DNA from: Martinezella tropici
GTDB lineage: Bacteria; Pseudomonadota; Alphaproteobacteria; Rhizobiales; Rhizobiaceae
Assembly (NCBI RefSeq): GCF_008370325.1
Contig: NZ_VNIP01000004.1
Coordinates: 186,001 to 250,000 of the forward strand
Direction: 5' to 3'
Length of the DNA: 64,000 bases
Position numbers and translations under genes: made by a program. The notes beneath the pieces are model-generated. The model was not told the DNA's origin and did not search any database. It saw only the letters and a program-made list of their open reading frames with translations. This document shows, piece by piece, positions 1 to 22,870 of the stretch. The number at the start of each line of letters is the position of its first letter. The stretch's first letter is position 1.

Positions 1-2432
1 TTGCTGGTGAGCGAATCCTCGTGCCAGCCATCGATATCGACCACCGTGCAGTCGTCCCCGATCGCGTCACCCCATCCGAACCGCAATTTGCGTGCCCGAG
101 GATGGGTCGCGCTGCTTCGCAGCAGCACGACGCTGGGATCCTTCGTCTGCGGCGGCTTGTAGTGGCGCGCTGCTGCCACGAGCAACTTGGTAACGGCCTC
201 GTTCGCTTCCTCTTCAGCCGAATATTGCCCAGCCTTGACACCGAATAATCTCAGGAGCGACAGCGAGATTTCGAACTCCTTGAGATAGTCGATCAGCCGG
301 ATACGGCCGGAGAACAGTTTTCGGGTGAAATAGGCGAGCCGCTTGCGCCGCCGTTCACGGTTCCAGCGTGCCTGCTCCCGCTTCGGCAGGGATACGAAAT
401 AGCCCGGAGCCCATGCGTCGATGATTGCCGTGGTGCCGACATCGACGCCTCTTTCCTGCAATTGCCGTCCGACCTCCAGTGCCAGGACGCCATTGACGCA
501 GAGCCCGACGATGGCAACACGGCCCACCGCCTTGTCGATCCGCATGGCGTCTATCGCGCGGCTGGCCATATCTTCGATGCTCAGGCGATCCAGGCCGTTC
601 GCCAGATCCGCATGGAACATGTTGACATTCTGCACCGAGACGCTGTCCGGCAGCTCGTTGGCAAGGCGATAATACAGAAACGGATGATTGAGCGTATAAA
701 CCGTACTGGTCCCCGTACCATGCTTGCAGGTGATCAGTTCCCACGGGTTTACCGGCTTCTCCTGTGCTGCCGGCGTCGCATCGACATTGAAGATCGCCGC
801 TGCAAAGCCTGCAAACGTCGGCTGCTTGAATAGAAGCTGCAATGTCGGTGCTGCTTCGAATCTAGTGCGTATTTCCGATAGGAGCCGTAACGCGAGGAGC
901 GAGTGGCCGCCGAGTGCGAAGAAATCATCATCCGGACGTATTTGCGGAACCTGTAGGACTTCTTTCCAAAGCTCAGCAAGCGTTTCCATCCGCGTATCCG
1001 CAGGCGATTTGCTTGTGACGGCGCCATCCATCGGCGCAGCCTCGGCGGAAGCTGCCAGGTGTCGTTCCGGCGCAGCGAGCGAAGAAAGCGGCGCCTCAGG
1101 GTGATCGAGAGCAATTTCATAAGCGTTCCTCCATAGTTGCAGGAGGCTTTCGATGGTGCTGGCTTCGAAAAGGTCGGCATTGTATTCGATCGACATGCGC
1201 CAGCCGGTCGGTCGGCCGATCATGATGAAGCTCAGATCGTAGATGACGCCGGGAGACTGCGAGGGCGAGCTGATCAGCTCGAAACCGCCATAGCGCCGAT
1301 CCTCGAGAAACGCTTTCTGCAGGTTGAAATTGACGGAGATCAGCGGATTGCGTGCCGGATCGCGCACCGGATTGACGAGTTCCACGAGCTTGTTGAACGG
1401 CATGCGCTGATGGTTCAGTGCGCCTTCGATCGTCGCGCTGACGGAACGGATATGCTCGGCAAAACTGGTATCGGAGCTGAAATCGAAGCGCAGAACCAGA
1501 TTGTTGATGAAGACGCCGATCAGGTCCTCCAGATCGCTTTGTTCGCGACCGGCGATCTGCGATCCGAACAGGACGGTCGGAGCCTCCGTCAGGCGATGGA
1601 GGGCCGCGCTCAAAACCGCCGCCCCGAAGCTGTATTGCGAAACGCAATGCGCGCGCGCCGCCGCATCCATGCGATCGGTGAAAGCGGACGGTTGGGCGAT
1701 GGAAAGGATGTCGCCGCGATTGGTCTTGACCTGACCGCGCGGTCGGTCGGAGACGACCTCGAAATAGGGGGCACCCTGCATGGTTTCCCGCCAGAAGGCC
1801 TTCTCCGTCTCGAAGCCATAGCTTTGCAGGTATTCCTGCTGCCAGAGGGCATAGTCGCCATATTGCAGCGGCAGTTCCGGCAAGACCGGCGGGCGTCCCG
1901 CATCGATCGCGGCGGCGATCTCGCCGACTTCGCGCCCGAGCACGCGGATGGACCAGCCATCGAAGCAGCTCTGATGCGCGGTGATCAACAGAAAGCCGCG
2001 CTCGTTTTCGGCCATCAGCAAGGTGACGCGAAAGAGGCCTGGAATGCTTAGATCGAAAGGCGCCTGCGCGGTCTCCTCGCCGATCGACAGGATTCTTGCC
2101 TGGCGCTGCTCCGGCGGCATGCCGCGCAGATCGATCACCGACATCTTGAAATTGACATCGCTGACGGCCTGCTGGAATGGCTGACCACTTTTTTCGATGA
2201 AACGGGTTCTTAGTATTTCATGACGCTGGATGATTTTTCGAAAGGCCGCTTCGAGGGTCGCGACCTTGAATGAACCCCGGATTTCCCACCGGACCGCGAC
2301 ATTGAGCGCCGGATTGCCGGGATTGAGCTGATCGAGAATCCAGCAGCGCAACTGCGTCTGCGTACAGGGAAATTCGCCGATGATCTGCGGTTCGGCAAGG
2401 GTACCGCTTGGACTATTGTCGACTGTACTCAT
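1..2432 (-). CDS. NRPS termination protein, C-PCP-thioesterase (3' end off the window)
   Basis: Reading frame is open from the ATG at 2432 to the left edge (about 810 residues visible), starting inside the stop of the upstream synthetase (ATGA overlap). Domains: condensation domain about 15-440, peptidyl carrier protein about 475-545 with the phosphopantetheine Ser511 in GGHSL, thioesterase from about 560 onward. There is no adenylation domain. Two key sites are unusual. The condensation motif is HQSCFDG (H153-Q154), so the usual second, catalytic His of HHxxxDG is Gln. The thioesterase nucleophile elbow reads GLCVNG, placing Cys645 where Ser is usual. A candidate catalytic His804 lies in GWHED near the edge. 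By position it should carry out the last condensation and/or chain release of the cluster product. Domain calls are firm; the effect of the substitutions is inferred. Confidence 0.88.
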   Translation of the reverse strand, partial: MSTVDNSPSGTLAEPQIIGEFPCTQTQLRCWILDQLNPGNPALNVAVRWEIRGSFKVATLEAAFRKIIQRHEILRTRFIEKSGQPFQQAVSDVNFKMSVIDLRGMPPEQRQARILSIGEETAQAPFDLSIPGLFRVTLLMAENERGFLLITAHQSCFDGWSIRVLGREVGEIAAAIDAGRPPVLPELPLQYGDYALWQQEYLQSYGFETEKAFWRETMQGAPYFEVVSDRPRGQVKTNRGDILSIAQPSAFTDRMDAAARAHCVSQYSFGAAVLSAALHRLTEAPTVLFGSQIAGREQSDLEDLIGVFINNLVLRFDFSSDTSFAEHIRSVSATIEGALNHQRMPFNKLVELVNPVRDPARNPLISVNFNLQKAFLEDRRYGGFELISSPSQSPGVIYDLSFIMIGRPTGWRMSIEYNADLFEASTIESLLQLWRNAYEIALDHPEAPLSSLAAPERHLAASAEAAPMDGAVTSKSPADTRMETLAELWKEVLQVPQIRPDDDFFALGGHSLLALRLLSEIRTRFEAAPTLQLLFKQPTFAGFAAAIFNVDATPAAQEKPVNPWELITCKHGTGTSTVYTLNHPFLYYRLANELPDSVSVQNVNMFHADLANGLDRLSIEDMASRAIDAMRIDKAVGRVAIVGLCVNGVLALEVGRQLQERGVDVGTTAIIDAWAPGYFVSLPKREQARWNRERRRKRLAYFTRKLFSGRIRLIDYLKEFEISLSLLRLFGVKAGQYSAEEEANEAVTKLLVAAARHYKPPQTKDPSVVLLRSSATHPRARKLRFGWGDAIGDDCTVVDIDGWHEDSLTS

Positions 2433-5400
2433 AGAGATGCCCCCAGGCCTCGGCGTGCGCCGTTACGAAAATCTCGCAGTGATGGTATGTGCAGCTGAAC
2501 GGGATCGGACGGAGCCTCCGCCTGGCTGTCGGCAAAGGCAGCCAATGCGGCAATCGTCGGATGACGCAAGAGATGCTTTGCTTCCAATGGCAAGCCGTCG
2601 TCGCGCATGCGGGCGGCGATGCGGAAGATGGCAAGCGAGTCGGCGCCGAGCGCGTAGAGATTGTCATCGATGCCGATATCGCCGAGGTTGAGAACGTCCT
2701 GCCAGATCGCCAGCAGCCGCTGTTCCATCTCGGTTTTTGGCTGGACCTTGGTCGGCGCGGCTCCCCGCTGCGGCACGCCGCGCTGCTGTAGAGCTTTGCG
2801 GTCGAGCTTGCCGTTGGCGGTGTGCGGCAGCTCGCTTTCCAGCACCCAGAAGCTCGGGACCATATGTCCGGGCAGATGGGCTTTGGCATGCGTCGCGATA
2901 TCGGCCGTCAATGCGTCATTGCCGCCTGTTTGAGGCACGATATAGCAGACCAGAGACCGATCGCCCTTGGCGTTTTCGGCGACAACGGCGGCACATTGGC
3001 GCACACCTTCCGCTTTAGATATGACGGCCTCTATGTCGCCGAGCTCGATACGGAAGCCGCGCAGCTTGACCTGCTGGTCACGCCGCCCGAGCAATTGCAG
3101 CGAACCATCTGCCAGCCGCCGCCCGACGTCGCCGGTCCTGTAAAGCCGCATCGGCCTGCCGATGGCGAAGCAATGCGGGACGAAGGCTTTTTCTGTGAGA
3201 TCGAGGCGATCGAAATAGCCTTCCGCCAGGCCGTCGCCACCGATATGCAGCTCGCCGATGACGCCGATTGGCGCGATATTCTCGCTCTGGTCGAGAATGA
3301 AGAGCTGGGTATTGGCGATGGGATGGCCGATGGTGATCGGCTGATCGGCATCCGTGATGCGTTGCAGCGACGACCAGATCGTCGTTTCCGTCGGGCCGTA
3401 CATATTCCAGAGTTCGCCGCCGATACCAAGCAGCGAGCGCGCCAGTTCCTTGGGCAGAGGTTCGCCGCCGCAGAGCATTTTCAGCGTCCGCCGCTCCTTC
3501 AGGCCGGCTTCCACCAGCATCTGCCAAAGCGTCGGCGTGGCCTGCAGCACCGTGGCATCATGTTCGTCGATGAGCTTGACCAGTGCAAAGCCGTCCTGGA
3601 CCTGACTGCGGCTGGCGATGACGACCTTTCCGCCCGATATCAGCGGCAGGTAGAGTTCCAGACCGGCTATGTCGAACGAGATGGTCGTGACCGCGACAAG
3701 CGTGTCATCCGCGCCGAAGCCGGGTTCCCTCGCCATGGAGAGAAGGAAGTTGGTCAGGGATCGATGCGAAACCTCGACCCCCTTCGGCATGCCGGTCGAG
3801 CCGGAGGTGAAAATGATATAGGCGGATGCGGTCGTATCGACAGGCAGGGTCTTCAGGGCAAGGCCGGTCATCGAGCTGATCGCCTTGGCATCCTGGTCGA
3901 GCCGGATAACGGGAACATCCTTTGCAAGCCGGGCCATGTCGTCGCTGTCGCAGACCAGGCCGCCGATGCGGGCGATATCCAGCGTCTGCAGCAGGCGGGG
4001 TTCCGGGTGAGCGGGATCCATCGGGACATAGGTATGTCCTGCCTTCATGACCGCGAGCAGGGCGACGATCATGTTCAGCGATCGCTCGACCAGTATCGCG
4101 ATACGCTGACCGGGATCGGGAAGCGCCATCTGCAGGTAAAGAGCAAGCTGGTTCGAGCGCGTCTCCAGCTCGCCGTAGCTGAGTGCCTGGCCGTCATGTT
4201 GGACAGCGACGGCATTCGGCTGTTCGGCTGCCCGTTTGGAAAAGAGCGAGAAGACGAACTGATCGTGGTCATATGGTGCAGCCGTCCGATTGAGATCGTC
4301 GACCAGCCAGGATTTCTCCTCCGCCGACAGCAGCGACAGTTCACCGACCTTGTGATCCATATCTTTGGCCAAGGTGGCTGCGAGCGTCGAGAAGTGACTG
4401 ATCCATCGCTCCACGGTCGAACGATCGAAGACATCGGCGTTGTAGTCGACGTCGATGCGGATGTGGTCGGCTGCCTCGATCATGTTGAAGAACAAATCGA
4501 AGTTGGAAAAGGCCTTTGCGTTGGGCTCCATCGTCGGCTTGAGATCGCCGAAGGATGATCCGCCGGCCATGCGTTCGAGGTTGAACTGTATTTCGGTGAG
4601 CGGCAGGCGGCGCGGATCGCGCTTCGTATCCAGTTTGCGCACCAGCGTGCCGTAGGTGTAATCCTGATGTTCAAAGGCTTGAAAGACGAGCTGCTGCGTT
4701 GCCTTCAGGTGATCCGCAAACGGCTCCGTTGGCGATACCGCCTGACGCAGCGGAAGCAGGTTGACGCAATGGCCGACGAGGATCTGGCCATCGAGCAGGC
4801 TTTGACCGGCCGATGGAATGGCGATGACGATATCGTCCTGACCCGACAACCGCGATATCATGACCTGGAGGGTTGCTAGCAGAGTCGAGAACAGGGTAGC
4901 GCCCGATTTGGCTCCCTTCTTCTTCAGCGCCTTATAGACGTCGGCATCGATATAGCCGGTGCAGCTGCCGCCCGCGAAACTGCGATATTCTGGACGCGGC
5001 CGATCGAGCGGCAGGTCCGGAAGGTCCGGAACCGTCTTGAACTGATCGAGCCAGAACTGTTCGGTCGCCTGGGATTTCTCCGGCCTGGGGGAAAGATCCG
5101 TCGAATAGGTGGCGAAGGAAAGGGCCGGCTGGAATTCGGGAGCATTGCCCGTCCTGTAGGCCTCGTAGGCGGTGCTGAGCTCTTCGACGAAGGTATTGAT
5201 CGACCAGCCGTCGCAGATGATGTGATGGGCCGTGAAGACCAGCACGTGCTTTTCGGGCGCCAGCTTGACGATGCTTGCGCGAACCAGGGGGCCGTTGATG
5301 AGATCGAAGGGCGTATTGGCATCATCGTCTATGAGAATGGCAAGGCCCTGGTCGTCGATATCCTCAAGGATCGGCAGGTCGAGCTTGAAATCCGGAATGA

Positions 5401-8400
5401 AGCGGAAATACTCACCGCCGCGGTCAAAACGAATATGAAACGCGTCATGGCGCGCAATGACCGTATCGATAGCCTTCCGGATGGCCGCCTCGTCCAGGGT
5501 TCCTTTCAGCGTCAGCGAAAAGGACTCGTTGAATGAGCAGGAGGCTTCGTCGCCCGCCTGGGCTGCGAGCCATATTTCCGTTTGTGCCTCCGTCAACGGC
5601 ACGGATTCCGGCCTCGCGACGGATGCCTGTATCTGCTTTGCCGATATCGATGGTTCTTCTTTTGCCGTGAATATTCCAACGCCCTGCATGGTGTCGAGAC
5701 TGTCGCGGAACGCTTTCGCGATCGTGCGGAAATCGTCTTCGCTGTGTGCTGTCGTCAGGAAACAGGGATACCCATCCTGTATGTGGACGCCATTCAGCCG
5801 CATCTGGGCATAGAACAGCGCGCCGAGCGGATCCTGGCTGGAAAAGTCGGTGGCGAACCAGCTCTTGTAGCCATGAACCACATCGGCAATGCCACGTCTG
5901 GCAAGATCGGCTTTGATCTCCGCAACCAGTGCTTCGGTTCGCTCGGCGACACGGCTGTAGAGAACCGATCCCTCTCCCTTGATGTGGTGCAACACGGCGT
6001 CTGCGGCTGCGAGCGTCAGGGGATGACGTACGAAGGTGCCGGCAAAGAATGTCGGCGCCGTCATGGGCACGGAGCTGTCGCCGTAATCCCAATAGCCGCC
6101 ATCGAGCGCATCCATGAAGCGCGGGCTGCCGACAAGCACGCCGATCGGCATTCCGCCGCCGACGACCTTGCCATAGGTTGCCATATCGCCCTTGATGCCC
6201 CAGATCGCCTGCATGCCGCCGGGATCGACGCGGAAGCCGGTGACGACCTCATCGAAGACCAGGGCGAATTCGGACTTGGTGGCAATGTCGCGCAGTTCCA
6301 GGACGAACTCGCGCGGCTGCAATTCGGGATGACGGCTCTGGATCGGCTCGATGATGACAGCCGCTATATCGGCGGCATTGGCGCGGATGAAGTCGAGGCT
6401 TTCCGGCGCGCCGTAACGCAGCACAGTCATATTCGACACCGAGGCCATCGGAATGCCTGAGGCGACGGGCAGGGCGATCGGCTTGTCGGCGCGATTACGG
6501 CCCTTGACCAGTACTTCGTCGAACTGGCCGTGATAGTCATTGGCAAAGACCACGACCCGATCACGGCCGGTGACGGCGCGCGCAAGCCGCATTGCAGCCA
6601 TGACCGCTTCCGAACCGGTATTGCAGAAGGTGACACGCTCGTGTCCGGTCACTTCGGCGATCATCTTTGCGACGTCGCCGGCAAGCGGCGTCTGCGGGCC
6701 GATGGCAAATCCCCGGTCGGCCTGAGCCTTGACGGCGTCGATGACGAAATCAGGTGCATGGCCGAAGGCCGTCTGCCCGAAGCCGTTGACCAGATCGACA
6801 TACTGATTGCCGTCGATATCCCAGATATAGGCGCCCTTGGAATGGTCGCAGACGATCGGGAACACCATTTCCTTCCAATCTGCCCGGAAGCCCGAAGCGG
6901 AACGGGGATCGGCCAGATGTCCGCGATGTCCCTGGGTAAAGCTCTTCGATTTGGCGTTCTTGGTTTCATAGGCCTTGGTGAGGCTGGTGATGAAGTCCTG
7001 CTTGGCCGCGGTAATCTCTGGCGCCAGGCTCTTGGCATTCGGACGATAGAGTTTGATGCGTTCGGTGCCGAAATCGCTGTCCGCGGCGGCGGCGGGGGCG
7101 GGGGCAGGGGACGCACTCGTTGCCGGTTGCGGCGTCTGCACAATGGCTGCCACGGGCATCGCGCTCGGCATAGAGGAGGTCTGGGCGCCACCCTGCATGG
7201 CCTGCAGCATCAGCAGCTGCTGAGAGAACAGAGTCTGCGCCATCTGGATCTGGGATTGCAGCACGGTGGCGAGGTCCGATGCTGCCGCTGGCATGCCTGC
7301 CGCTTGTGTAGCGGCAGGCATGATCGGCGCTGACACGCTTGGCGCTGACATAGCCGGCATCGGCGCGGCCGCGGCGGGGGATGGCACGGGTTCAGCCGCC
7401 TTCACTGCCTCGGGTGGCATTTGCTGATCGAGGTAGATGGCCAGATCGGCAACGGAAGGGATATCGCTCAGCAATTCCCGGAAGGAAATTTTGACCTTGA
7501 AGTCCTTTTCGATGCGTTGCGCAAACTGACCGACGAAGAGCGAATCGAAGCCGAGCTCCAGGAATGTCGTCGCCCGTTCGTCGGGCCCCAGCGTTTCACC
7601 CGACATGTCGCTCAATAGCGTCAGAAGAGCCGTTTCCAATTGCGGCAGGCGGCTGGAGATGGAAATTGATGCTGCAACATTCATTGCTCGTTTCTCCTCG
7701 GTGAGGTTGACGTCAGAGACAAGGGGTTCGCTTTCAGGAGCGCTCGCCGGGTTGGCAAGGGCGCCCCGGCTCGATGCGCGACGCGCGGACGAGGGCGCAT
7801 CGATCCAATGGCGCTGGCGCTGGAACGGATAGGTGGGCAGAGATAGACGCTGCCGGGCGACCGACGGGAGAGCCGGCCAGCTGAGCCGGCAGCCCGTCAT
7901 CCATAGCTTGCCGTGCGCTTCCGCGAGAGTTTCGGCGGCAGCGGAGGCCCGGTCATGCTCCGGCAGGGATTGCACGACGGCGGCAAGACCATCACGGGCG
8001 ATCGTCTGCGCGGCAAATACCGAAAGCGTCCGCCCCGGCCCGACTTCGAGAAGAAGCGGCTTGCGGTCGCGGCAAAGCGTGACCAGGCCATCGGCAAAGT
8101 GGACGGCATCGCGACAATGCATGGCCCAATAGTTGGGAGATGTCATCAGCTCGGCGGTTTGCCAGTCGCCGGTGACGCCGGAGATGAAGGGGATCGTCGC
8201 GGTGCCGTAGGTTACCTTTTCCGTTTCATGGCGGAGCGCAAGCGCCGCATCCTTCATCATGACCGAATGAAAAGCGTGTGATGTGTGCAGGCGACTGAAG
8301 GCTATCTCGGCGGCTTCAAGCGCCGTGCAGACCTTGTCGATGTCGCCGAACGGGCCGGAGATAACACAAAGCTTCGGAGCATTGATCGCAGCAATTTCGA

Positions 8401-10507
8401 CATCGCCTTGCAGATAGGAAGCCGTCGTGGTGGCGTCGGCGCGAACGGATACCATCGCGCCCTGCGGCTGATGCTGCATCAGCCGTCCGCGATTGGCCAC
8501 GAGGCGCAGTCCGTCTTCGAAGGAAATGACGTTGGCGAGCGTAGCGGCAACAAATTCGCCAACGCTGTGACCGATCATGGCATACGGCTTGACACCGCGG
8601 CTGAGCCACAATCGGGCAAGTGCATATTCGACAAGATAAAGACAGGGTTGAGCGATGCGGGTTTCGCGCTGTTCATCGGCGATCGCCTGCGTCACGGGGC
8701 CGGTGTGGCAGATGTAGTCACGCAGGTCGAGCCCGAGAGTCATTTTCAGAAGCTCGGAGCCACGATCGATCCAGCGGGCGAATTCCGGTTCGGAGCTGTA
8801 GAGGCCGGCACCCATGCCGACATATTGTGCACCCTGACCGGGGAACATGAATGCAACCGGCGGCTGATCCACGGCGACAAGGGGCTGATAGCTATCCGTT
8901 GTCAGCTTGATGATCGCTTCCTCGACACTTCCGGCGGCAACCGCCAGCCGATGGCCGAACTCGCGCCGTCCCGTTTGCAGCGTGCAGGCGAGCTGCGCGA
9001 TCGAAAGCTTCGGATTCTCGGCGAGATGATTACTCAAATTGGTGCGCATCTGCGCAAGAGCTGGTTTATTGCGCGCCGAAAGAGGTAAGATGTAATGCCC
9101 CTCTACCTCGTTGGACTTAGTTGATGGATGGGGAGGTTCCTCCAAAACGACATGGACATTCGTACCGCCGACCCCGAAGGCGCTCACCCCGGCCCTGCGC
9201 GGCACTTGCCCCTGCGGCCAGTCGATCATTGCGGTCGGAATGTAGAAAGGACTCCCTTCGAGATTGATGCGTGGATTGGGCTGACGATAATTCGGCATCG
9301 GCGGGATTTTTGCGCTGTGAAGCGCCAGCGCCGTCTTGATGAGCCCGGTTACGCCGGCTGCGGCATCCGTATGGCCGATGGTGCCCTTGACCGATCCAAG
9401 TGCGCAGCTGGCGGCTCCCGGCGCGCCGTCCGCGAAGGCTCTCGTCAGGCCATTGAACTCGATGGGATCGCCGAGCGGCGTCGCGGTGCCGTGGCATTCG
9501 ATATAGCCGATCGTCGAGGGATCGACGCCCGCATTGGCGATCGCGGTGGCGATCGCCTCGGCTTGTCCGTCCACGCTCGGTGCCGTGAAACCGATCTTGT
9601 CACTGCCGTCATTGTTGATGCCGTAGCCGCGAATGAGCGCATAGATGTGATCGCCATCCTGAAGCGCTTCCTCGTAGCGCTTCAGGAGAACGACGCCGGC
9701 TCCGCTCGCAAAAACGGTTCCGGCGGCGTCGGCGTCGAAAGGCCGGCAAGTGCCGTCCGGCGAGGCCATGCCGCCTTCCTGATAGATGTAGCCCCTCTTT
9801 TGCGGGATGGTGACCGAGATGCCGCCCGCGAGAGCCATGTCACAGCCATAGGTAAGCAGATTCTGACACGCCTGTGAAACGGCGAGAAGCGAGGTTGAAC
9901 ATGCGGACTGCAGCGTGAAGGCCGGGCCGCGCAGATTGAACTTGTAGGCGACGCGGGTTGCGAGCGTATCGTTGAGCGCGCCGACGAGTTCGTGAAACGA
10001 GCCGATCTGGTAGTTCGATGTGAATTCTTCCGCCTTGGCGCGATCGTGCAGAACATTGTTGATCAGATAGGTCGGCATCGAGGAGCCGGCGAAGACGCCG
10101 ATCGGGCCGGCATAGCGCTGCGGATCGTATCCCCCGTCCTCCAGCGCTTCCCAGCATATTTCCAGGAAGATGCGATGCTGCGGATCGGTAATGGCAGCCT
10201 CGCGTGGAAACATGCCGAAGAATTCGGCGTCGAACATATCGGCATTATCGAGATGAGGCCTTGCCGCGACATAGTTCGGCTGCGCCCGCTCCTCGTCGGT
10301 GAACGCGTCTTCGATTTCATCCGGTGAGAAGCGGGAAAAGGCGTTCTTTCCTTCGAGCACGAGCTTCCAGAGCTCATCGACGGAGGAGGCGCCGGGGAAA
10401 CGGCCGGACATGCCTATAATGGCGATGTGCCCGGAAATCTGCCCGTTCAGATCCTCATTCTCTTCGAAATCACGCTGTTCGCCCATCTCTTGGTGATTTC
10501 GTTTCAT
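2429..10507 (-). CDS. Hybrid PKS-aminotransferase-NRPS, KS-AT-ACP-AMT-C-A-PCP (2692 aa)
   Basis: Start chosen at the ATG that overlaps the stop of the upstream A-PCP gene (ATGA), with AGGAG about 7 nt upstream. Domains: ketosynthase about 27-450 (Cys203 in ACSTSL, HGTATPLGDP, GTIGHTD); acyltransferase about 560-850 (Ser648 in GHSVGE, malonyl-type HAFHS); acyl carrier protein with Ser989 in GFDSL; Ala/Pro/Met-rich linker; class III PLP aminotransferase about 1170-1590 (Lys1447 in GKVVGGG); condensation domain with intact HHIICDG (H1761-H1762); adenylation domain (TSGSTGMPKG, YGPTETT, NGKLD); carrier protein with Ser2624 in GADSL. There is no ketoreductase, so the beta-keto group is presumably converted to a beta-amine by the aminotransferase, as in the iturin/mycosubtilin synthases, which share the KS-AT-ACP-AMT-C-A core but start with an acyl ligase. 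Residues lining the A pocket read DILQLGMIWK, close to the known glycine code. Confidence 0.93.
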   Translation of the reverse strand: MKRNHQEMGEQRDFEENEDLNGQISGHIAIIGMSGRFPGASSVDELWKLVLEGKNAFSRFSPDEIEDAFTDEERAQPNYVAARPHLDNADMFDAEFFGMFPREAAITDPQHRIFLEICWEALEDGGYDPQRYAGPIGVFAGSSMPTYLINNVLHDRAKAEEFTSNYQIGSFHELVGALNDTLATRVAYKFNLRGPAFTLQSACSTSLLAVSQACQNLLTYGCDMALAGGISVTIPQKRGYIYQEGGMASPDGTCRPFDADAAGTVFASGAGVVLLKRYEEALQDGDHIYALIRGYGINNDGSDKIGFTAPSVDGQAEAIATAIANAGVDPSTIGYIECHGTATPLGDPIEFNGLTRAFADGAPGAASCALGSVKGTIGHTDAAAGVTGLIKTALALHSAKIPPMPNYRQPNPRINLEGSPFYIPTAMIDWPQGQVPRRAGVSAFGVGGTNVHVVLEEPPHPSTKSNEVEGHYILPLSARNKPALAQMRTNLSNHLAENPKLSIAQLACTLQTGRREFGHRLAVAAGSVEEAIIKLTTDSYQPLVAVDQPPVAFMFPGQGAQYVGMGAGLYSSEPEFARWIDRGSELLKMTLGLDLRDYICHTGPVTQAIADEQRETRIAQPCLYLVEYALARLWLSRGVKPYAMIGHSVGEFVAATLANVISFEDGLRLVANRGRLMQHQPQGAMVSVRADATTTASYLQGDVEIAAINAPKLCVISGPFGDIDKVCTALEAAEIAFSRLHTSHAFHSVMMKDAALALRHETEKVTYGTATIPFISGVTGDWQTAELMTSPNYWAMHCRDAVHFADGLVTLCRDRKPLLLEVGPGRTLSVFAAQTIARDGLAAVVQSLPEHDRASAAAETLAEAHGKLWMTGCRLSWPALPSVARQRLSLPTYPFQRQRHWIDAPSSARRASSRGALANPASAPESEPLVSDVNLTEEKRAMNVAASISISSRLPQLETALLTLLSDMSGETLGPDERATTFLELGFDSLFVGQFAQRIEKDFKVKISFRELLSDIPSVADLAIYLDQQMPPEAVKAAEPVPSPAAAAPMPAMSAPSVSAPIMPAATQAAGMPAAASDLATVLQSQIQMAQTLFSQQLLMLQAMQGGAQTSSMPSAMPVAAIVQTPQPATSASPAPAPAAAADSDFGTERIKLYRPNAKSLAPEITAAKQDFITSLTKAYETKNAKSKSFTQGHRGHLADPRSASGFRADWKEMVFPIVCDHSKGAYIWDIDGNQYVDLVNGFGQTAFGHAPDFVIDAVKAQADRGFAIGPQTPLAGDVAKMIAEVTGHERVTFCNTGSEAVMAAMRLARAVTGRDRVVVFANDYHGQFDEVLVKGRNRADKPIALPVASGIPMASVSNMTVLRYGAPESLDFIRANAADIAAVIIEPIQSRHPELQPREFVLELRDIATKSEFALVFDEVVTGFRVDPGGMQAIWGIKGDMATYGKVVGGGMPIGVLVGSPRFMDALDGGYWDYGDSSVPMTAPTFFAGTFVRHPLTLAAADAVLHHIKGEGSVLYSRVAERTEALVAEIKADLARRGIADVVHGYKSWFATDFSSQDPLGALFYAQMRLNGVHIQDGYPCFLTTAHSEDDFRTIAKAFRDSLDTMQGVGIFTAKEEPSISAKQIQASVARPESVPLTEAQTEIWLAAQAGDEASCSFNESFSLTLKGTLDEAAIRKAIDTVIARHDAFHIRFDRGGEYFRFIPDFKLDLPILEDIDDQGLAILIDDDANTPFDLINGPLVRASIVKLAPEKHVLVFTAHHIICDGWSINTFVEELSTAYEAYRTGNAPEFQPALSFATYSTDLSPRPEKSQATEQFWLDQFKTVPDLPDLPLDRPRPEYRSFAGGSCTGYIDADVYKALKKKGAKSGATLFSTLLATLQVMISRLSGQDDIVIAIPSAGQSLLDGQILVGHCVNLLPLRQAVSPTEPFADHLKATQQLVFQAFEHQDYTYGTLVRKLDTKRDPRRLPLTEIQFNLERMAGGSSFGDLKPTMEPNAKAFSNFDLFFNMIEAADHIRIDVDYNADVFDRSTVERWISHFSTLAATLAKDMDHKVGELSLLSAEEKSWLVDDLNRTAAPYDHDQFVFSLFSKRAAEQPNAVAVQHDGQALSYGELETRSNQLALYLQMALPDPGQRIAILVERSLNMIVALLAVMKAGHTYVPMDPAHPEPRLLQTLDIARIGGLVCDSDDMARLAKDVPVIRLDQDAKAISSMTGLALKTLPVDTTASAYIIFTSGSTGMPKGVEVSHRSLTNFLLSMAREPGFGADDTLVAVTTISFDIAGLELYLPLISGGKVVIASRSQVQDGFALVKLIDEHDATVLQATPTLWQMLVEAGLKERRTLKMLCGGEPLPKELARSLLGIGGELWNMYGPTETTIWSSLQRITDADQPITIGHPIANTQLFILDQSENIAPIGVIGELHIGGDGLAEGYFDRLDLTEKAFVPHCFAIGRPMRLYRTGDVGRRLADGSLQLLGRRDQQVKLRGFRIELGDIEAVISKAEGVRQCAAVVAENAKGDRSLVCYIVPQTGGNDALTADIATHAKAHLPGHMVPSFWVLESELPHTANGKLDRKALQQRGVPQRGAAPTKVQPKTEMEQRLLAIWQDVLNLGDIGIDDNLYALGADSLAIFRIAARMRDDGLPLEAKHLLRHPTIAALAAFADSQAEAPSDPVQLHIPSLRDFRNGARRGLGASL
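7292..7322. repeat. Perfect 13-bp inverted repeat inside the ACP-AMT linker
   Basis: CATGCCTGCCGCT at 7292-7304 is followed by a 5-nt loop and its exact reverse complement at 7310-7322. In the mRNA this gives a 13-bp GC-rich stem in the low-complexity linker between carrier protein and aminotransferase. It may slow translation between domains or may simply be a chance product of biased Ala/Met/Pro codons. Confidence 0.6.
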
Positions 10508-12420
10508 AAGGAGCTCCTGCGGATGTGAGAGATTGCCTTCTTCTGCAGGGCCGCGCGCTGGGCCGCCGCCGCGATCCGCGTCGGGCCGGCCGTCCTGCCG
10601 TCCAGGTAAAGGGCCAGTTCCCGGATGGTCGGATGGCGCAGCAGCGCAACCACATCGATCGTTCGACCAAGCCCTTCCTCGAGACCGGCATGAATTTCCA
10701 TCAGTTGCAGCGAGGTGCCGCCAAGGTCGAAGAAGTTTCGGTCGACATCGACGCCGGCAAGGCTCAATGCATCCTGCCACAGCGTCATCAGCAGCTCTTC
10801 TGTCCCGTTCCTGGTATCCATGGGCTTCGCCTGCATTTCGACGGGCGGCGGCAAGAGTTTGGAACGGTCGACCTTGCCGGCTGCCGTGAGCGGCAGAGTA
10901 TCGACGATGACGGCGGCGCTCGGGATCATATAGGCCGGAAGTGCCATGCGCAGCGTCGCCATGACACCCTGCACGAGGTCGGCGCCTGCGCCCACGTGGC
11001 TTTCCTTGGGGCACAGATAGGCAACGATGCGTTTCAGGTTTTCGCCCTGGACGTGGCAAAGGACGATGCCGTCGGCAAGACGCGGATCGCGCCTGAGCGC
11101 GGCTTCGATCTCATCGAGTTCTATGCGCTTGCCGTTGATCTTGACTTGCCGGTCGCGCCGTCCCTTGAAGGTAACGGTGCCATCGGGCTTCATGCAGGCC
11201 ACGTCGCCGGTCAGATAGAAGCGTGTCGCGCCCTCCTTCGTGGCAATGGTCACGAATTTCTGCTCGGTCAGTTCCGGGCGCTTGAAATAGGCGATGGCCA
11301 GGCCATCGCCCGATATTGCCAGCTGGCCTTCGATCCCCGGCGGAACGACGCGCAGCTCCTCGTCCAATATGGCGATGCCTGTATGCGCGATCGCCTTGCC
11401 GATTGGCAGCTCTCCGCCTGAAAAACTGGGCAGGACCGGGAACGCGGTGGCAAAGACCGTCGTCTCGGTCGGACCATAGATATTGGTGAGCTTGCAGCCG
11501 GGATGGTGCTCGAGAAAGCGCCGGGCATGAACGACCGATCCGACATCGCCACCGAAAAGAATATGGCGAAGCTTCGGCAGGGATGCGCGGGCATGATCGG
11601 CAAAGAGGTTGAACAGCCCCGTCGTGAGGAACGAGATGCTGACATCCGTCGTTCGCATGAAGTCGGACAAGCGCGAGATGGAAAACTCACTATCGGGCAT
11701 GATTGCCAGTGTGCAACCATTGAGAAGCGCGCCCCAGATTTCGAAGGTCGACGCGTCGAAGGAAATAGTGGCGGCGTGAAGAATGACGTCGTCGCGGCGA
11801 AAATCGGCATAATTCTGGTCGAGAGCCACCCGCGCAATGCTGCGATGGCAGATCATTGTTCCCTTGGGGCGCCCGGTCGAGCCGGACGTGTACATGATGT
11901 ATGCAAGATCGGCGCCGGTGATCGTCGTTGCCGGCAGGGCAACCCGTGGCTGTCCTGCCATCTCGGCGATAATGGCATTTGCCTCGATGACCTTGGCGTT
12001 CATGCTCGGCACACTGCAAAGCTTATCGCCAAAGGCCGAATCGACGAAGATGACCTTCGGCAGGCATTCGCCGATGACGAAATCGAGATGGTCGACCGGA
12101 AGGGCGGGATCAAGCGGCAGATAGGCACCGCCGGCCTTGAGGATCGCTATCTTGCAAATGATGGCGTTGGCGCTGCGCGGCAGGAAGAGACCGATAATAT
12201 CGGCCCTGTGGACGCCGATCCTGACCAGATGCAACGCAAGCGCGTCGGATATGCGGTCGAGATCACGGTAGCTGAGCCTAGTGTCGTCAAACACGAGCGC
12301 GGTTGCCTCCGGTGTCGCCCGAGCCTGCATGCGCAGCATTTCGTGAAGGCAAAGGTTGCGATCGTAGTGCAGGCCTGCTGCGCCACCTGCTTCTGCTTGG
12401 GCCTCGCGGTCAATCATCAT
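10504..12420 (-). CDS. NRPS loading protein, adenylation-PCP (638 aa)
   Basis: Start at 12420 (ATGATG; the second ATG at 12417 is equally possible), with GGAGGG just upstream. Adenylation domain spans about 20-510 with TSGSTGRPKG, FDASTFE, YGPTETT, YLTGD, RRDRQVKINGKRIE and AGKVD; a carrier protein follows with Ser570 in GGTSL. No condensation domain is present, so it fits a starter module that loads the first amino acid onto its own PCP and passes it to the ketosynthase of the next protein; the two genes overlap by 4 bp. Aligning by eye to the GrsA pocket gives approximately DAFFLGIVFK, which resembles hydrophobic branched-chain codes, but this assignment is tentative. It is the first gene of the coupled three-gene line. 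Confidence 0.9.
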   Translation of the reverse strand: MMIDREAQAEAGGAAGLHYDRNLCLHEMLRMQARATPEATALVFDDTRLSYRDLDRISDALALHLVRIGVHRADIIGLFLPRSANAIICKIAILKAGGAYLPLDPALPVDHLDFVIGECLPKVIFVDSAFGDKLCSVPSMNAKVIEANAIIAEMAGQPRVALPATTITGADLAYIMYTSGSTGRPKGTMICHRSIARVALDQNYADFRRDDVILHAATISFDASTFEIWGALLNGCTLAIMPDSEFSISRLSDFMRTTDVSISFLTTGLFNLFADHARASLPKLRHILFGGDVGSVVHARRFLEHHPGCKLTNIYGPTETTVFATAFPVLPSFSGGELPIGKAIAHTGIAILDEELRVVPPGIEGQLAISGDGLAIAYFKRPELTEQKFVTIATKEGATRFYLTGDVACMKPDGTVTFKGRRDRQVKINGKRIELDEIEAALRRDPRLADGIVLCHVQGENLKRIVAYLCPKESHVGAGADLVQGVMATLRMALPAYMIPSAAVIVDTLPLTAAGKVDRSKLLPPPVEMQAKPMDTRNGTEELLMTLWQDALSLAGVDVDRNFFDLGGTSLQLMEIHAGLEEGLGRTIDVVALLRHPTIRELALYLDGRTAGPTRIAAAAQRAALQKKAISHIRRSSL

Positions 12421-12731: not shown

Positions 12732-13538
12732 CTACCTGAACTGGTAGGCTCTGACATAGTCTACAAACATGAAGGATGGATCGGCCGCGGCCATCTTCGT
12801 TATGCCTTCGACGATACCAAGATCGACGAGCATGTACATCGGCTGGCGATGTTCCGGTAAAGCCTTGGTTTTCCAAACGAGCTTTCCATCGAAATACATT
12901 CGTATGAAATCGGAATCGACCTTCACGCCATAGGTGTGCAAGTCACCGGGACTTGCAGAACCGAATGCATCGATGCGGGCATAGTCGGAATCGTGGCGTC
13001 CATCCCGGTGCCAGACATGCACCGTCGAAGAATAAGCTCCCGGCTTATCACCATAATATTCGATGACGTCTATCTCGGCTGTCGATTTTGAGCGATCCTT
13101 GCCGATCAGCCAGAAGGCCGGCCAGACACCGGGGCCGTCGGGTAGACGCGCCCGCATTTCGAAATAGCCATATTGCTGAGAGAAGCCATCTCCATTTCGA
13201 TCGACGGAAGCAATCAGGCCGGAGCGCCACGCACCTTTGTCATCACGCGCGGCGGTAATACGCAGCATGCCATCCTGTATCGCAAAGGGAAAGTCGGTAC
13301 CCGGATTGGAGAAGCGGGCACCTCCGAAATCACCATTCCAAGGAGTGTGGGCAATCCATCGGGTGCCAGGCCCCCAGGCAGAGATATTCATATCATCGAA
13401 AGGATCTTCGAATGTCAGTGTCATGCCGCTGATATCGAGCGTATCTCCCGTATCGCCAGCGCGTGCAACATCGACGTCTACGATCGCAATGAGTGCGGCC
13501 GCAACGGATGCGTGAAGGAATCCGCGGCGGTTGTACAT
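12732..13538 (-). CDS. Family 16 glycoside hydrolase, secreted (endo-beta-glycanase type)
   Basis: 268 residues from the chosen ATG. The N-terminus has twin arginines followed by a hydrophobic stretch (NRRGFLHAS, then VAAALIAIV), consistent with a Tat-type signal and cleavage near ARA-G. The GH16 catalytic signature ExDxxE is seen as EIDVIE (E155 nucleophile, D157, E160 acid/base), with WPAFWL upstream, the usual jelly-roll order. Rhizobial relatives (ExoK/ExsH type) cleave beta-glucan or acidic exopolysaccharide. It lies back to back with a polysaccharide polymerase and pyruvyltransferase, which suggests trimming of that polymer. The Shine-Dalgarno is weak, and an upstream in-frame ATG at 13574 cannot be excluded. 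Confidence 0.85.
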   Translation of the reverse strand: MYNRRGFLHASVAAALIAIVDVDVARAGDTGDTLDISGMTLTFEDPFDDMNISAWGPGTRWIAHTPWNGDFGGARFSNPGTDFPFAIQDGMLRITAARDDKGAWRSGLIASVDRNGDGFSQQYGYFEMRARLPDGPGVWPAFWLIGKDRSKSTAEIDVIEYYGDKPGAYSSTVHVWHRDGRHDSDYARIDAFGSASPGDLHTYGVKVDSDFIRMYFDGKLVWKTKALPEHRQPMYMLVDLGIVEGITKMAAADPSFMFVDYVRAYQFR

Positions 13539-13733
13539 GCATCGAGAGCGACATGTTTTTAAGAAGCGATCCATGTGCATAAGCATGAACGGCACAACGT
13601 ACAGGGTATAGAGCGTATTTCGGCCAGCATGTCCCCCGAAAGGCTTAGGTTCGGCGGAAATACAGCTTCATGTCCACATGCTACCTTTTGGCAATAAAGA
13701 GGAACAACATTAGACAACACTAGGTTGCCACTT

Positions 13734-15158
13734 ATGAATGTCATGGGACTTTTAACGTTAATTGTCGGTATTGTGACGCTGATCGTACCTGTTCGACTGT
13801 CATTCATCATCATGATCCTGTCGACGGTCTTCGGTGCCGCTGCCGCCTTCAGCGTACCCGGCCTTGGCGGAGCATCGGTGCTGGTGCCAAGCCTCTTTCT
13901 ACTATTCTTCGCGGTCCGGTTGTTCGCAGCCTATGGCGAAGCGCCTTTTCTCGCTGCCCTGGCACCCTGGCGTCCGGGCTTTTTCCTCCTGCTTCTAACG
14001 GCATTTGGCATCTTCACCGCGATCTTCTTCCCGCGACTGTTTCAGGGCCTGGTGCAGACAATGACCGTGGAGCGCTCGATCGGCGCGCGTAGCCTTATCG
14101 CGCTGGTGCCGCTGCGCTTTTCTTCAAACAATATTACCCAATCGGTCTATGCCGCCGGAGGGCTCGTCTGTTTCATTGCCACCTTCGCCTTCTTTCGTGG
14201 CAACGGCATTCCAAAAATATTCATCAACGGGATTTTGATTGTGGCAGGCGTCAACCTCGGTTTCGCGCTTGCCGATATCATCACGCATTTCACGCACACG
14301 GATTTCCTGCTCGACTTCGTGAGAACGGCCAATTACGCGCTTTTGACCAACGCCGAGAAAGGTGGGCTGAAACGCATTTCCGGGACCTTTCCCGAGGCCT
14401 CGGCATTTGCCGATTTCACGCTCGTCCTCTTTGCGGTCGTCACGAGCCTGTGGCTCGGCGGCATCCGCTCCGGCGTAACCGGTCTCGTCGCGAGTTTACT
14501 TCTCGTGGCGCTGATCCTGTCGACATCGGCGACCGCACTTGTCGGGCTCGCGATCATCCTGCCTGTCCTCAGCCTGCAGTCATTCCTGGCCTCCCGGCGC
14601 GACCCGGGTGCCGGCCGGCCTGTCCTGATCGTATCCATTCTCGCCAGCATGCCGCTCGTCATCTTTTTCGTTCTGATCGTCATGCCGGATCTTGCGCATA
14701 ATCTGCAGGATTTTCTCGATGAAATGCTGTTCTCGAAGGCCGGCAGCCAGTCTGGGCGCGAGCGCTTCATGTGGAATGCCATGGCCTATGAGGCGTTCGT
14801 GGATACGATTGGATTCGGCGCGGGCCTCGGAAGTGCCCGTGCATCGAGCTTCGGCCTCGTCCTGCTGTCCAATATCGGCATCTTCGGCACGTTGCTCTTT
14901 GCGCTCTTTGTCGCCCGCGTGCTGATGGCCGATACGCGACCGGGGTATCCGTCGTCACGCGAGGCCGTCGCGATCGTGCGCGCAGCCAAGGCCGGCTTCA
15001 TCACCGTCCTTGTTTCCGCTGTTATCTCAGGCACGGTCTACGATCTCGGATTGATGTTTTATATCCTCGCGGGCACCGTTTCAGCACTCACCGCCGGGGT
15101 GCGCGAGGCCAAGGGTGAATATAGCCCACACTTGAGCACCGCTGGAGGTTTGAGATGA
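13734..15158 (+). CDS. Polysaccharide polymerase / O-antigen ligase-like membrane protein
   Basis: 474 residues, almost entirely hydrophobic, with about 11-12 predicted membrane segments and a larger polar loop about residues 325-365 containing SGRERFMWNAM, as expected for the Wzy/WaaL/ExoQ superfamily periplasmic loop. The ATG at 13734 was chosen over an upstream TTG at 13725. The stop overlaps the start of the pyruvyltransferase gene (ATGA), so the two are translated together. Likely role: polymerising exopolysaccharide repeat units at the inner membrane. The family is divergent, so the exact substrate cannot be read from sequence. Confidence 0.7.
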   Translation: MNVMGLLTLIVGIVTLIVPVRLSFIIMILSTVFGAAAAFSVPGLGGASVLVPSLFLLFFAVRLFAAYGEAPFLAALAPWRPGFFLLLLTAFGIFTAIFFPRLFQGLVQTMTVERSIGARSLIALVPLRFSSNNITQSVYAAGGLVCFIATFAFFRGNGIPKIFINGILIVAGVNLGFALADIITHFTHTDFLLDFVRTANYALLTNAEKGGLKRISGTFPEASAFADFTLVLFAVVTSLWLGGIRSGVTGLVASLLLVALILSTSATALVGLAIILPVLSLQSFLASRRDPGAGRPVLIVSILASMPLVIFFVLIVMPDLAHNLQDFLDEMLFSKAGSQSGRERFMWNAMAYEAFVDTIGFGAGLGSARASSFGLVLLSNIGIFGTLLFALFVARVLMADTRPGYPSSREAVAIVRAAKAGFITVLVSAVISGTVYDLGLMFYILAGTVSALTAGVREAKGEYSPHLSTAGGLR

Positions 15159-16375
15159 AGATTGTCGTCTTCAACGTCAAATACAGCGAGAATCTCGGCG
15201 ACGGGTTGCTGGCGGAATGCGTCGAAGGTGCCTTGATGAAAAGCGGAGACGGGATCGAGGTGGAAACGATCGATCTTGCCGGGCGCAGGGCCTATGCCGC
15301 AAGCAATGGCGGCCGTAGACGCTTGGCGCTCGGATTGCTCCGTCGGCTGCCCTTTTTTGCCCGGCGGCGGCTTGTCCGCCTGGTGCTGGAGCGCAGGCTG
15401 AACAAGCTGCGCGGCTTGTGGGACGACAAGATCGCGCTTGCGGACGCCGTCATTATCGGCGGCGGCAATTTGTTTCAGGACGATGACCTCAATTTTCCGT
15501 TGAAAATCGGCGAGGTGCTCGATTGCGTGTCTCGGCACGATCGCCCCCTGGCGGTTTATGCCGTCGGTGTCAGCAAGCAATGGTCGGAGCCCGCCTATGA
15601 CCTCTTTGCGCGCTTGAGGCGGACAAGGCTTGTTCATCTCTCCGTGCGGGACGGCTTTGCCCAGGACAATTGGCAGGAACACTTTCCCGAAGGCCCGAGC
15701 GCGAAAATCGTACGGGATCCTGGATTGTTGGTCCATGCGATGCCGATCGCGGAAAAACCCGCCTCATCCTCCAAGCGCCAGCTGACCGTTGGTCTATGTG
15801 TGACCGATCCCGTCATCCTGCACAGGCATAGCGGGGATCACGCCTCCCACATCCCATTTTCCAGCATCGGTGCCTACAGGGATCTGGTCGGTGTGCTCCT
15901 GGATGACGGCCAGCGCGTCGTCCTGTTTTGCAACGGCGCGAGGGAAGATCAGTTGTTTGCGGAGCGCATCCGGAATTCGGTCAGCAAACATCGCGTCGTT
16001 GAAGCCGGCGCGCTCGATATTGCCAGTCGCCCGCAGGTTCCGGCCGATCTCATTCAGACGCTTCAGTCGATGGATGTGATCCTGGCTCATAGGCTGCATG
16101 CCTGTATCGCGGCCTATGCCCTCAAAATCCCGCATGTGGGCCTGGGTTGGGACAGTAAGGTCGAAGGTTTCTTCAATTCCGTCGGGCGAGAGACCTATTT
16201 CATAAAAGATGCACTGTCGCCGGTCGTTCATGTCGCCCTGCTGCTGAAAGCGGCTGAAAAGGAAGGGATAGACGCACTCCGGCACCGTGTCACGATCGCG
16301 GAAGCTCGGGCGGGAATCTCGAACATGCGCCGCCATCTGGTCGGAAGCGACGAATGCGCCATGTCGGGAATATAG
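15155..16375 (+). CDS. Polysaccharide pyruvyltransferase family protein
   Basis: 406 residues. The N-terminus (MKIVVFNVKYSENLGDGLL) and the glycine-rich IIGGGNLFQDDD, AVYAVGVS, LAHRLHACIAAYALKIPHVGLGWDSKVEGF blocks fit the polysaccharide pyruvyl transferase family (ExoV/WcaK/CsaB type), which moves pyruvate from phosphoenolpyruvate onto a sugar of a polysaccharide unit. It starts inside the stop codon of the Wzy-like gene. With only a polymerase and one modifying enzyme here, the glycosyltransferases for the same polymer must be elsewhere, or this is a remnant of a larger locus. Confidence 0.8.
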   Translation: MKIVVFNVKYSENLGDGLLAECVEGALMKSGDGIEVETIDLAGRRAYAASNGGRRRLALGLLRRLPFFARRRLVRLVLERRLNKLRGLWDDKIALADAVIIGGGNLFQDDDLNFPLKIGEVLDCVSRHDRPLAVYAVGVSKQWSEPAYDLFARLRRTRLVHLSVRDGFAQDNWQEHFPEGPSAKIVRDPGLLVHAMPIAEKPASSSKRQLTVGLCVTDPVILHRHSGDHASHIPFSSIGAYRDLVGVLLDDGQRVVLFCNGAREDQLFAERIRNSVSKHRVVEAGALDIASRPQVPADLIQTLQSMDVILAHRLHACIAAYALKIPHVGLGWDSKVEGFFNSVGRETYFIKDALSPVVHVALLLKAAEKEGIDALRHRVTIAEARAGISNMRRHLVGSDECAMSGI

Positions 16376-16632: not shown

Positions 16633-17304
16633 ATGGCGGGGCAGATTTCGATCGAGCATATCCAGAGCATGGGTGGCATAGCGCGAACCTTTGCCGCCGG
16701 TAGCGTGATCTGCGACTACGAGAGCAATGCGCCCCGTCTTCTCTTTCTCTTGGATGGATGGGCAGCGTCCAGCAAGATGCTGCCGAACGGCACGCGCTTC
16801 GTGACTGAATTCCTTCTGCGCGGCGATATGATCTCGACGTCGTTGACGGTACTTTCACGCGAGACCGTGCAAGCCATTACCAATGTATCCGTGATGGCCT
16901 TTCCGGATTTTGCCTCCATTCCCAAAATCGATACGCCGGCCTTGTTCTATCGCATTGCCATTGCCGAATTGGTGAGACGCCAGGCTCGCATGTCGGAAAG
17001 CCTCGCCAACATAGGACGGCGTGATGCGCTGGAGAGGACCGGCTACCTGCTGCTCGAGCTCGGGACACGGATCGGGACCTCGCAAGACGACCCCAATTCG
17101 GAATGCTTCGATTGTCCGTTGACCCAATCGGACATCGGAGATGCCGTCGGCTTGTCGACGGTTCATATCAATCGCGTGCTCAGGGATATGCGCGAAGCCG
17201 GTCTCCTGTCGTTCCGCAACGGTGTCGTTGCTTTTCTTGACCGCCCACGCCTCATGGATCTCGTCGATTTCGACGAATCTTATTTCGACACAACTATGAT
17301 TTGA
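16633..17304 (+). CDS. Crp/Fnr-family transcriptional regulator
   Basis: 223 residues from the ATG at 16633, which has GAGGGG 9 nt upstream; longer readings from TTG or ATG further up lack a ribosome site. The N-terminal beta-roll is cNMP-binding-domain-like (FAAGSVICDYESN, FLLDGWA, GDMIST) and the C-terminal winged helix contains LTQSDIGDAVGLSTVHINRV, a Crp-type recognition helix. The four Fnr iron-sulfur cysteines are absent. The ligand is unknown. It sits between polysaccharide genes and a CsgD-like regulator, so a role in surface or biofilm control is plausible but inferred. Confidence 0.85.
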   Translation: MAGQISIEHIQSMGGIARTFAAGSVICDYESNAPRLLFLLDGWAASSKMLPNGTRFVTEFLLRGDMISTSLTVLSRETVQAITNVSVMAFPDFASIPKIDTPALFYRIAIAELVRRQARMSESLANIGRRDALERTGYLLLELGTRIGTSQDDPNSECFDCPLTQSDIGDAVGLSTVHINRVLRDMREAGLLSFRNGVVAFLDRPRLMDLVDFDESYFDTTMI

Positions 17305-21498: not shown

Positions 21499-21525
21499 GT
21501 GAGCCCAAGGAGGAGGCGAGAGCAA

Positions 21526-21966
21526 ATGTCCGCCTCCTCCTACACATCGACTGAGCCAGTTCCGTGCGCCGGAATCGATCGTGGGCGATCAGTGTTCACC
21601 TTGCTGCTGAAGCCTTTCTTCCTGTTGATCCTGTTGTTCTCACATGCCGTTCCGGCCGCATCGCAGACCGCCGTCGAGTGCTTGATAAAGACGGACAGGA
21701 AGGAACAGCTTCTTGTCGTTCAGGCGATCGCGAGATCCGAAGCGGCGGTGTCCGGAAGGTACAGGCTGGTTCTCGTCAAGCACAGCGCCGCCGGCACGAG
21801 CCAGAGCATTCAGCAGGGCAGTTTTGATTTGCAGCCCGGTTCGGACGGCCTTCTTGCCACGACGATGGTCGATGCGGCAGACCAGACGGAACTGACTGCA
21901 AGGCTATTGATCGAAACCGATCGAGGTACATCACAATGCGGAATACGAGGCGGATTACCAGAATGA
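21526..21966 (+). CDS. csgH: Curli assembly chaperone, CsgH type
   Basis: 146 residues from the ATG at 21526 with AAGGAGGAGG about 10 nt upstream. A hydrophobic segment (SVFTLLLKPFFLLILLFSHA) forms the signal peptide, then a small beta-sandwich-like domain with two cysteines (VECLIKTD and SQCGI) as in CsgC/CsgH, which hold curlin in a non-amyloid state in the periplasm and form one disulfide. Position between csgA and csgB and the overlap with the next gene support this. Confidence 0.75.
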   Translation: MSASSYTSTEPVPCAGIDRGRSVFTLLLKPFFLLILLFSHAVPAASQTAVECLIKTDRKEQLLVVQAIARSEAAVSGRYRLVLVKHSAAGTSQSIQQGSFDLQPGSDGLLATTMVDAADQTELTARLLIETDRGTSQCGIRGGLPE

Positions 21967-22466: not shown

Positions 22467-22506
22467 GCGGCGCAGCGGCGCTCGGAAACAAGGGAGGGGA
22501 ATGGCA

Positions 22507-22815: not shown

Positions 22816-22870
22816 GCCAATTGATTGCGCAATAATTTCATTTTGTTGGGGGCGATTTATTCGAGCGGCG

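Follow-up and report, generated by a model that had tools for sequence, protein, structure and literature searches.

The window analysed here is a stretch of 64,000 nucleotides from Martinezella tropici (contig NZ_VNIP01000004.1, positions 186,001 to 250,000), and its left end carries a hybrid non-ribosomal peptide synthetase-polyketide synthase (NRPS-PKS) assembly line that lies within an exopolysaccharide (EPS) locus. Pfam searches confirmed the order A-PCP / KS-AT-ACP-AMT-C-A-PCP / C-PCP-TE on the minus strand (A, adenylation; PCP, peptidyl carrier; KS, ketosynthase; AT, acyltransferase; ACP, acyl carrier; AMT, aminotransferase; C, condensation; TE, thioesterase). The Pfam order by protein is A and PCP; KS, AT, two carrier domains, class-III aminotransferase, C and A; and C, PCP and TE. 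CDS1 (10504..12420, 638 amino acids (aa)) is the A1-PCP1 loading protein, CDS2 (2429..10507, 2692 aa) carries KS-AT-ACP-AMT-C1-A2-PCP2, and CDS3 (C2-PCP3-TE, 827 aa) occupies 1..2432 and runs 52 bases past the left end of the window (C29:185949-188432). Both gene junctions are 4-bp ATGA overlaps, bearing out the domain order and overlaps that a first-pass annotation of this DNA had proposed. The same domains were found again in related loci, hence the line is not a chance arrangement. An upstream ketoreductase (KR) or extra module had been named as something that would alter the chemistry; by Pfam, neither was found among the scanned genes of the left flank beyond the window.

The catalytic motifs are intact in KS (9287..10429, active site ACSTS), AT (7892..8851, GHSVG and HAFH), AMT (5777..6865, lysine in YGK), C1 (4304..5605, HHIICDG) and all four carrier domains, including PCP1 (10603..10794, GGTS), the ACP (7382..7666, GFDS) and PCP2 (2534..2722, GADS). 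The ACP was placed by its motif and the other domains by Pfam together with the motif, with the nearest solved relative as additional evidence for AMT. We take the HAFH motif to denote a malonyl-type AT and the YGK lysine to be the pyridoxal phosphate lysine of AMT. No reductive domain was found in the line by Pfam, and the expected single malonyl-type extension without beta-reduction is thus upheld.

The nearest solved relative of the AMT is the mycosubtilin MycA aminotransferase (6kfm, 1.1e-111). The combination of KS-AT-ACP with an in-cis class-III aminotransferase homologous to that of MycA is the architecture of a beta-amino-acid NRPS-PKS of the AMT type, in agreement with the beta-transamination predicted earlier. 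In the iturin/mycosubtilin system, the MycA domain acts on a PKS beta-keto intermediate, and the starter is a fatty acyl chain. Unlike MycA, the present line sits in an EPS locus and does not start from a fatty acyl unit supplied by an acyl ligase: its starter protein is A-PCP, and A1 passes the amino-acid adenylation model TIGR01733 (354 bits against a cut-off of 317.4) with Asp at code position 1, which supports the amino-acid starter of the first-pass annotation. McyE and NdaF of the microcystin and nodularin systems share the CDS2 order, KS-AT-...-ACP-AMT-C-A-PCP in one protein. In McyE, AT and ACP are separated by a C-methyltransferase, whereas no methyltransferase family was found in CDS2 by Pfam.

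Relatives of the line were collected as 34 family loci (the window, 14 named records and 19 further genomes), with G743 (same replicon as NXT3), a second Loktanella record (L007) and, among further matches, G020, G021 and G031 left out. The reading of substrate codes covered the window plus the named records. The window A1 code is DAFFLGIVF(K), while A2 (2807..4243, placed by Pfam and code reading) reads DILQLGMIW(K); by published code tables, these presumably specify an aliphatic amino acid and, for the second amino acid foreseen before, glycine. A2 reads DILQLGMIW in the Rhizobiaceae examined and in Loktanella (with one position in a gap for L013 and L014), DILQMGLIW in Rhodobacter and DILQWGLIW in Jannaschia, and is strongly divergent in Aliiroseovarius (DALWLGGTF) and in Variovorax, where it is also unlike the window. 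Among the loci, A1 reads DAFFLGVVF, DALFLGAVF, DAFLFGAVL, DAFLMGLVL, DAVNIGVCI, DGLVIGAVI, DVGYICGVF or DGPPLGEIG. With A1 variable and A2 steady, the starter amino acid seems to differ between strains and glycine to be constant. Because the line has no reductive domain, CDS1 and CDS2 are predicted to couple a 3,4-diaminoacyl chain to the amino acid activated by A2; as at first pass, the simplest product to expect is a 3,4-diamino acid. The Aliiroseovarius line (L016:19522-29811) is one fused 3429-aa protein with a Ser TE right after PCP2, and both of its A codes are DALWLGGTF.

CDS3 departs from an ordinary release module, and that assignment by the first-pass annotation is set aside: the protein is most likely a C-A-PCP-TE remnant minus its A domain, and its C2 motif (1956..1976) reads HQSCFDG rather than the HHxxxDG of a canonical elongating domain. 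Neither this motif nor the GLCVNG of the TE, with Cys for Ser, had been picked up before. Between C2 and PCP3 the window has a 19-aa linker (996..1052), at which relatives carry an A-domain remnant of 104-128 aa and G337 a whole A domain. The third module of G337 is C-A(Gly-type)-PCP-TE, with 523 aa between C2 and PCP3 making up a complete A domain (A3) that is 46% identical to window A2 and matches it, by eye, at all nine code positions. Across 32 loci the remnant is present in 20, and A3 is gone, with 19-39 aa left, in 11, the window included. A profile of 18 of the 20 stumps aligns with A2 over its C-terminal subdomain (hhalign probability 96.8, E 2.8e-10). By eye, the NGK-motif lysine is lost in the stump rows that align there, and Pfam matches to the stump, found in three of four stump-bearing proteins scanned singly, are weak, scoring below the curated cut-off. 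In an AMT tree with its root on the long branch to Variovorax, G337 diverges earliest (the remaining loci group together with 95/86 support) and Azorhizobium next, and the A3 state requires at least five changes. Given the whole A domain of G337, the A2-like stumps and this branching, the ancestral third module was most likely C-A(Gly)-PCP-TE, from which the A domain was lost.

The C2 motif is HQxxxDG in 27/32 loci and retains HH in five (Loktanella, Rhodobacter, G495, G640 and G337). The replacement is always Gln, and the tree calls for no fewer than three changes at this site, in either direction. C2 is closer than C1 to its window counterpart in all Rhizobiaceae loci, bar a tie in G495, and the relation is reversed in G337 and Azorhizobium. 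Against three relatives, dN/dS of C2 is 0.041, 0.101 and 0.079, similar to the 0.063-0.075 of AMT, and is lower than that of C1 in two of the three. These low ratios indicate that C2 is under purifying selection and retained for some function.

The Pfam match to the TE of CDS3 is short and of modest score (38 bits), but the modelled fold is that of an NRPS TE (pLDDT 83.5, Z up to 20.9). The nucleophile in GLCVNG is Cys645 (codon 498..500), and Cys replaces Ser in 19/19 rows; the triad Asp is present in 90% or more of rows, and the His stands at the aligned column in 17/19 (all except L164 and L166). In the window Cys, Asp and His are all present, and fold and triad together are those of a type I NRPS TE. 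AB3403 of Acinetobacter baumannii is a terminal NRPS module of the order C-A-PCP-TE that keeps its A domain, unlike the third module of the window. The TE profile matches the sequence of its structure (4zxh, by title that of a four-domain NRPS) better than any other (4.3e-23), and AB3403 also has a Cys nucleophile. In PMC11298585, a Cys nucleophile is noted for the TEs of SulM, ObiF and AB3403, the last of these being called uncharacterised. The TE of mycobacterial Pks13 matches the profile as well (~1e-12), with no close relationship to the TE of the line: it works on a lipid chain and uses Ser, as the S1533A mutant in PMC9210659 indicates. According to the same paper, it releases its product onto polyols, with trehalose preferred. 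Pks13 can thus be cited as an earlier example of a TE that acts on a sugar acceptor, but is no evidence of such transfer here.

The line is embedded among genes for polysaccharide assembly. To its left lie a 534-aa GINT1_N protein, a phosphopantetheinyl transferase, a DegT aminotransferase, a GMC oxidoreductase and a TIGR04325 methyltransferase, as well as a Wzx flippase, an initiating sugar transferase, glycosyltransferases, a Wzz/BY-kinase protein and Wza; several of these names, including those of the sugar transferase and Wza, were assigned via homology to the annotated CCGE531 locus. To the right, the EPS locus continues with a GH16 glycoside hydrolase (12735..13646, minus strand), a Wzy/O-antigen-ligase-like protein (13734..15155, plus strand; Wzy_C Pfam match under the curated cut-off) and a polysaccharide pyruvyl transferase (15155..16372, plus strand), and it is adjoined by a Crp/FixK-type regulator (16633..17301, plus strand). 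Initiating sugar transferase, Wzx, Wzy-like protein, Wzz/BY-kinase and Wza thus occur together, which makes this a Wzx/Wzy EPS locus, and rhizobial EPS loci of this type have the same machinery, pyruvyl transferase included. In a term search of the text of PMC8227245, a review on the EPS of rhizobia, neither 'peptide synth' nor 'polyketide' turned up, and PMC6256449, in the part available, mentions NRPS genes and EPS genes of strain 11515TR separately. A description of such a system was not found in the accessible portions of the open-access literature searched.

Several neighbours deserve separate mention. The 534-aa GINT1_N protein (L020:8325-9926, left of the window) is a marker present in 25/34 family loci, and its model suggests a formyltransferase-like N-terminal domain fused to a GH43/GH117-like five-bladed propeller (at a mean pLDDT of just 70); formyltransferases and propellers both appear among the Foldseek matches, and the VIA list covers residues 276-534 only. 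Formyl transfer by this protein as a coupling step was set aside, the formyltransferase His being absent by eye. TIGR04325 appeared in the literature searched, as far as its text was accessible, solely in one paper, on transcription in Leptospira, and three TIGR04325 methyltransferase genes lie near the AMT line on a plasmid of Variovorax sp. RA8 (L017). An S15-type CocE/NonD hydrolase is encoded near the line in Loktanella (L006:8856-10667) and Rhodobacter (L008:13899-15731). Curli-like genes (CsgH, CsgF, CsgG and neighbours; 20404-23848) are located a few kb from the EPS locus, are likewise near it in CCGE531, 11515TR and G004, and are represented by a CsgG relative near it in G741 and Loktanella 1A07899.

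To determine how widely line and EPS genes are linked, six classes of EPS marker were searched (tblastn, E<=1e-8, no coverage limit) with a bar of at least three. This bar was reached by 28/34 family loci versus 1/27 controls, the latter comprising other AMT lines (0/7), other Rhizobiaceae NRPS loci (1/8) and random 20-kb stretches (0/12), with four NRPS contigs of 3.7-6.6 kb excluded. The sole positive control, G446 (L186/L187, G446:C6), is itself an EPS locus with an NRPS-PKS in which no AMT was found. Its KS is 62% identical to that of the window, hence it may belong to a related lineage instead of being a chance match, and the link between this KS and EPS may be wider than the AMT family. 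Of the six loci under the bar, neutral Pfam searches placed a flippase and/or an initiating sugar transferase near the line in four: in Azorhizobium, a flippase 7 kb and a transferase 23 kb from the third gene; in G720, matches at 16-18 kb; in G337, at 18 and 27 kb; and in G030, a flippase at 6 kb; Aliiroseovarius, also under the bar by markers, has EPS genes by its deposited annotation. Gene order differs among Rhizobium CCGE531, SL42, Loktanella, Jannaschia and Aliiroseovarius, while the EPS linkage is constant. The phosphopantetheinyl transferase marker was found in 30/34 family loci and 4/27 controls. DegT (27/34) and GMC (24/34) accompany the line in Rhizobiaceae, and both do so in Azorhizobium.

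The line itself is patchily distributed, occurring in 13/61 relatives (E<=1e-60) and 17/394 sampled Rhizobiaceae (E<=1e-120), own genome included. Among 385 sampled Alphaproteobacteria, a close AMT was seen only in the own genome and G337 (61%), with four more genomes at 41-48%. A search of these genomes with the third-protein alignment matched ten, of which G337 is the only family member by AMT beyond the own genome, the other eight being C-domain matches. When genome contigs were searched with that alignment, the matches listed included generic condensation domains, and of the 80 loci kept only L021 was used.

The joint travel of line and EPS genes through many alphaproteobacteria suggests that the peptide is made for the polysaccharide. 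We therefore favour, at about even confidence, an NRPS-PKS line dedicated to EPS that makes a 3,4-diaminoacyl-glycine (or -Gly-Gly) unit, probably attached to a sugar. In the corresponding mechanism, the phosphopantetheinyl transferase of the locus would activate the carriers, A1 would load an aliphatic amino acid on PCP1, and KS and AT would add one malonyl unit. Transamination of the unreduced beta-keto group by AMT would give the 3,4-diaminoacyl chain, which C1 would couple to glycine loaded by A2. The chain would then move to C2-PCP3-TE, the presumed descendant of a complete C-A(Gly)-PCP-TE module. Two roles for PCP3 are conceivable: A2 might load it in trans with a further glycine, or it might do no more than take over the finished chain; C2 would act as a gate or as a modified catalyst. 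The cysteine TE would most likely release the chain by placing it on a sugar in the EPS repeat, at either an amine or a hydroxyl group, and the adjacent GMC oxidase and DegT aminotransferase may supply this acceptor. The decorated repeat would then exit via Wzx and the Wzy/Wza machinery.

A number of observations count against this proposal. The markers were drawn from two family loci, so that the figure of 28/34 is biased towards relatives, the same markers having been used on the controls. The controls were mostly shorter (random stretches of 20 kb versus ~40 kb), the Pfam search of controls covered G446 only, and the 34 loci are related by descent and so are not independent. A related line in Variovorax, the only family locus lacking EPS genes, has no EPS markers. 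Linkage alone would also fit a peptide co-produced with EPS, the attachment to sugar being our inference. DegT and GMC are both absent from Loktanella, Rhodobacter, Jannaschia, G495, G640 and G337, which makes the pair a guess at best as maker of the accepting amine. The triad His of the TE is off its aligned position in Loktanella, Rhodobacter, Jannaschia, G495 and G640 (rows L006, L007, L008, L015, L164 and L166), where Cys is kept; the TE of these relatives may work otherwise or not at all. Lastly, C2 without its second His may perform no condensation at all, and the cysteine TE may cyclise or hydrolyse the chain.

The last point leads to the foremost alternative, a free diffusible diamino-peptide that serves as signal or antibiotic, with the EPS genes merely adjacent or co-regulated for biofilm life. 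Such a peptide would be linear or else closed by the TE into a lactam of seven or eight members. The TE fold and Cys nucleophile suit cyclisation or hydrolysis too, and the Cys TEs of SulM and ObiF form small rings according to PMC11298585. Against this reading, the likely triad Asp of the present TE (D114) is situated after the strand that follows the nucleophile strand; this is the common position, unlike that in the beta-lactam and lactone TEs of the same paper. The Ser TE straight after PCP2 in Aliiroseovarius and the RND efflux system near the marker-free Variovorax line would also accord with a free product. In Loktanella, an RND pump lies ~9-12 kb from the line, behind catabolic genes. 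In the loci read there is, however, no consistent small-molecule exporter, and none besides Wzx is consistently beside the line in five annotated loci with wide flanks, whereas the EPS linkage extends across two orders and several gene orders. With the third-module remnant, the altered C2 motif and the EPS locus taken together, the small free peptide assumed in the first-pass annotation is no longer the leading reading; we regard it as doubtful while clearly possible.

Alternatively, the line could be decaying, its product no longer made. This would account for the reduction or complete loss of A3, the prevalence of HQ in C2 and a TE His that cannot be aligned in Rhodobacterales TEs, G495 and G640. 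Yet the third gene is stop-free in 13/13 rows, no internal stop occurs among the matches listed in relatives, and dN/dS against three relatives is 0.04-0.24 in all nine domains tested, which makes decay improbable. A siderophore line, as in the PKS/NRPS/aminotransferase cluster of Allorhizobium ampelinum, is most improbable and was set aside: that cluster and those of Agrobacterium share homologous KS, AMT and NRPS domains, but the A. ampelinum cluster has a TonB receptor and iron transport genes, and no such iron genes are annotated in the CCGE531, SL42, Loktanella and Jannaschia stretches or found among ten scanned proteins flanking the line in the window.

Returning to the EPS-dedicated line, we tentatively extend the proposal, with rather less than even confidence, to a widespread NRPS-PKS family that supplies an exported polysaccharide with a covalently bound substituent. 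In this family the starter would vary while beta-amination and glycine are fixed, and the last module would have turned from elongation to sugar transfer through loss of its A domain, exchange of the C2 His for Gln, perhaps repeatedly, and a cysteine TE. G337, the stump-bearing loci and the clade of the window would then form a natural series for the conversion of an NRPS module after A-domain loss. Such assembly lines are generally regarded as sources of free metabolites; if the proposal is true, they would decorate surface polysaccharides as well. The EPS would bear vicinal-diamine peptide side groups and hence be cationic or metal-binding, in a family that spans rhizobia and Rhodobacterales and in a class of polymer that governs biofilm formation and contact with surfaces or roots.

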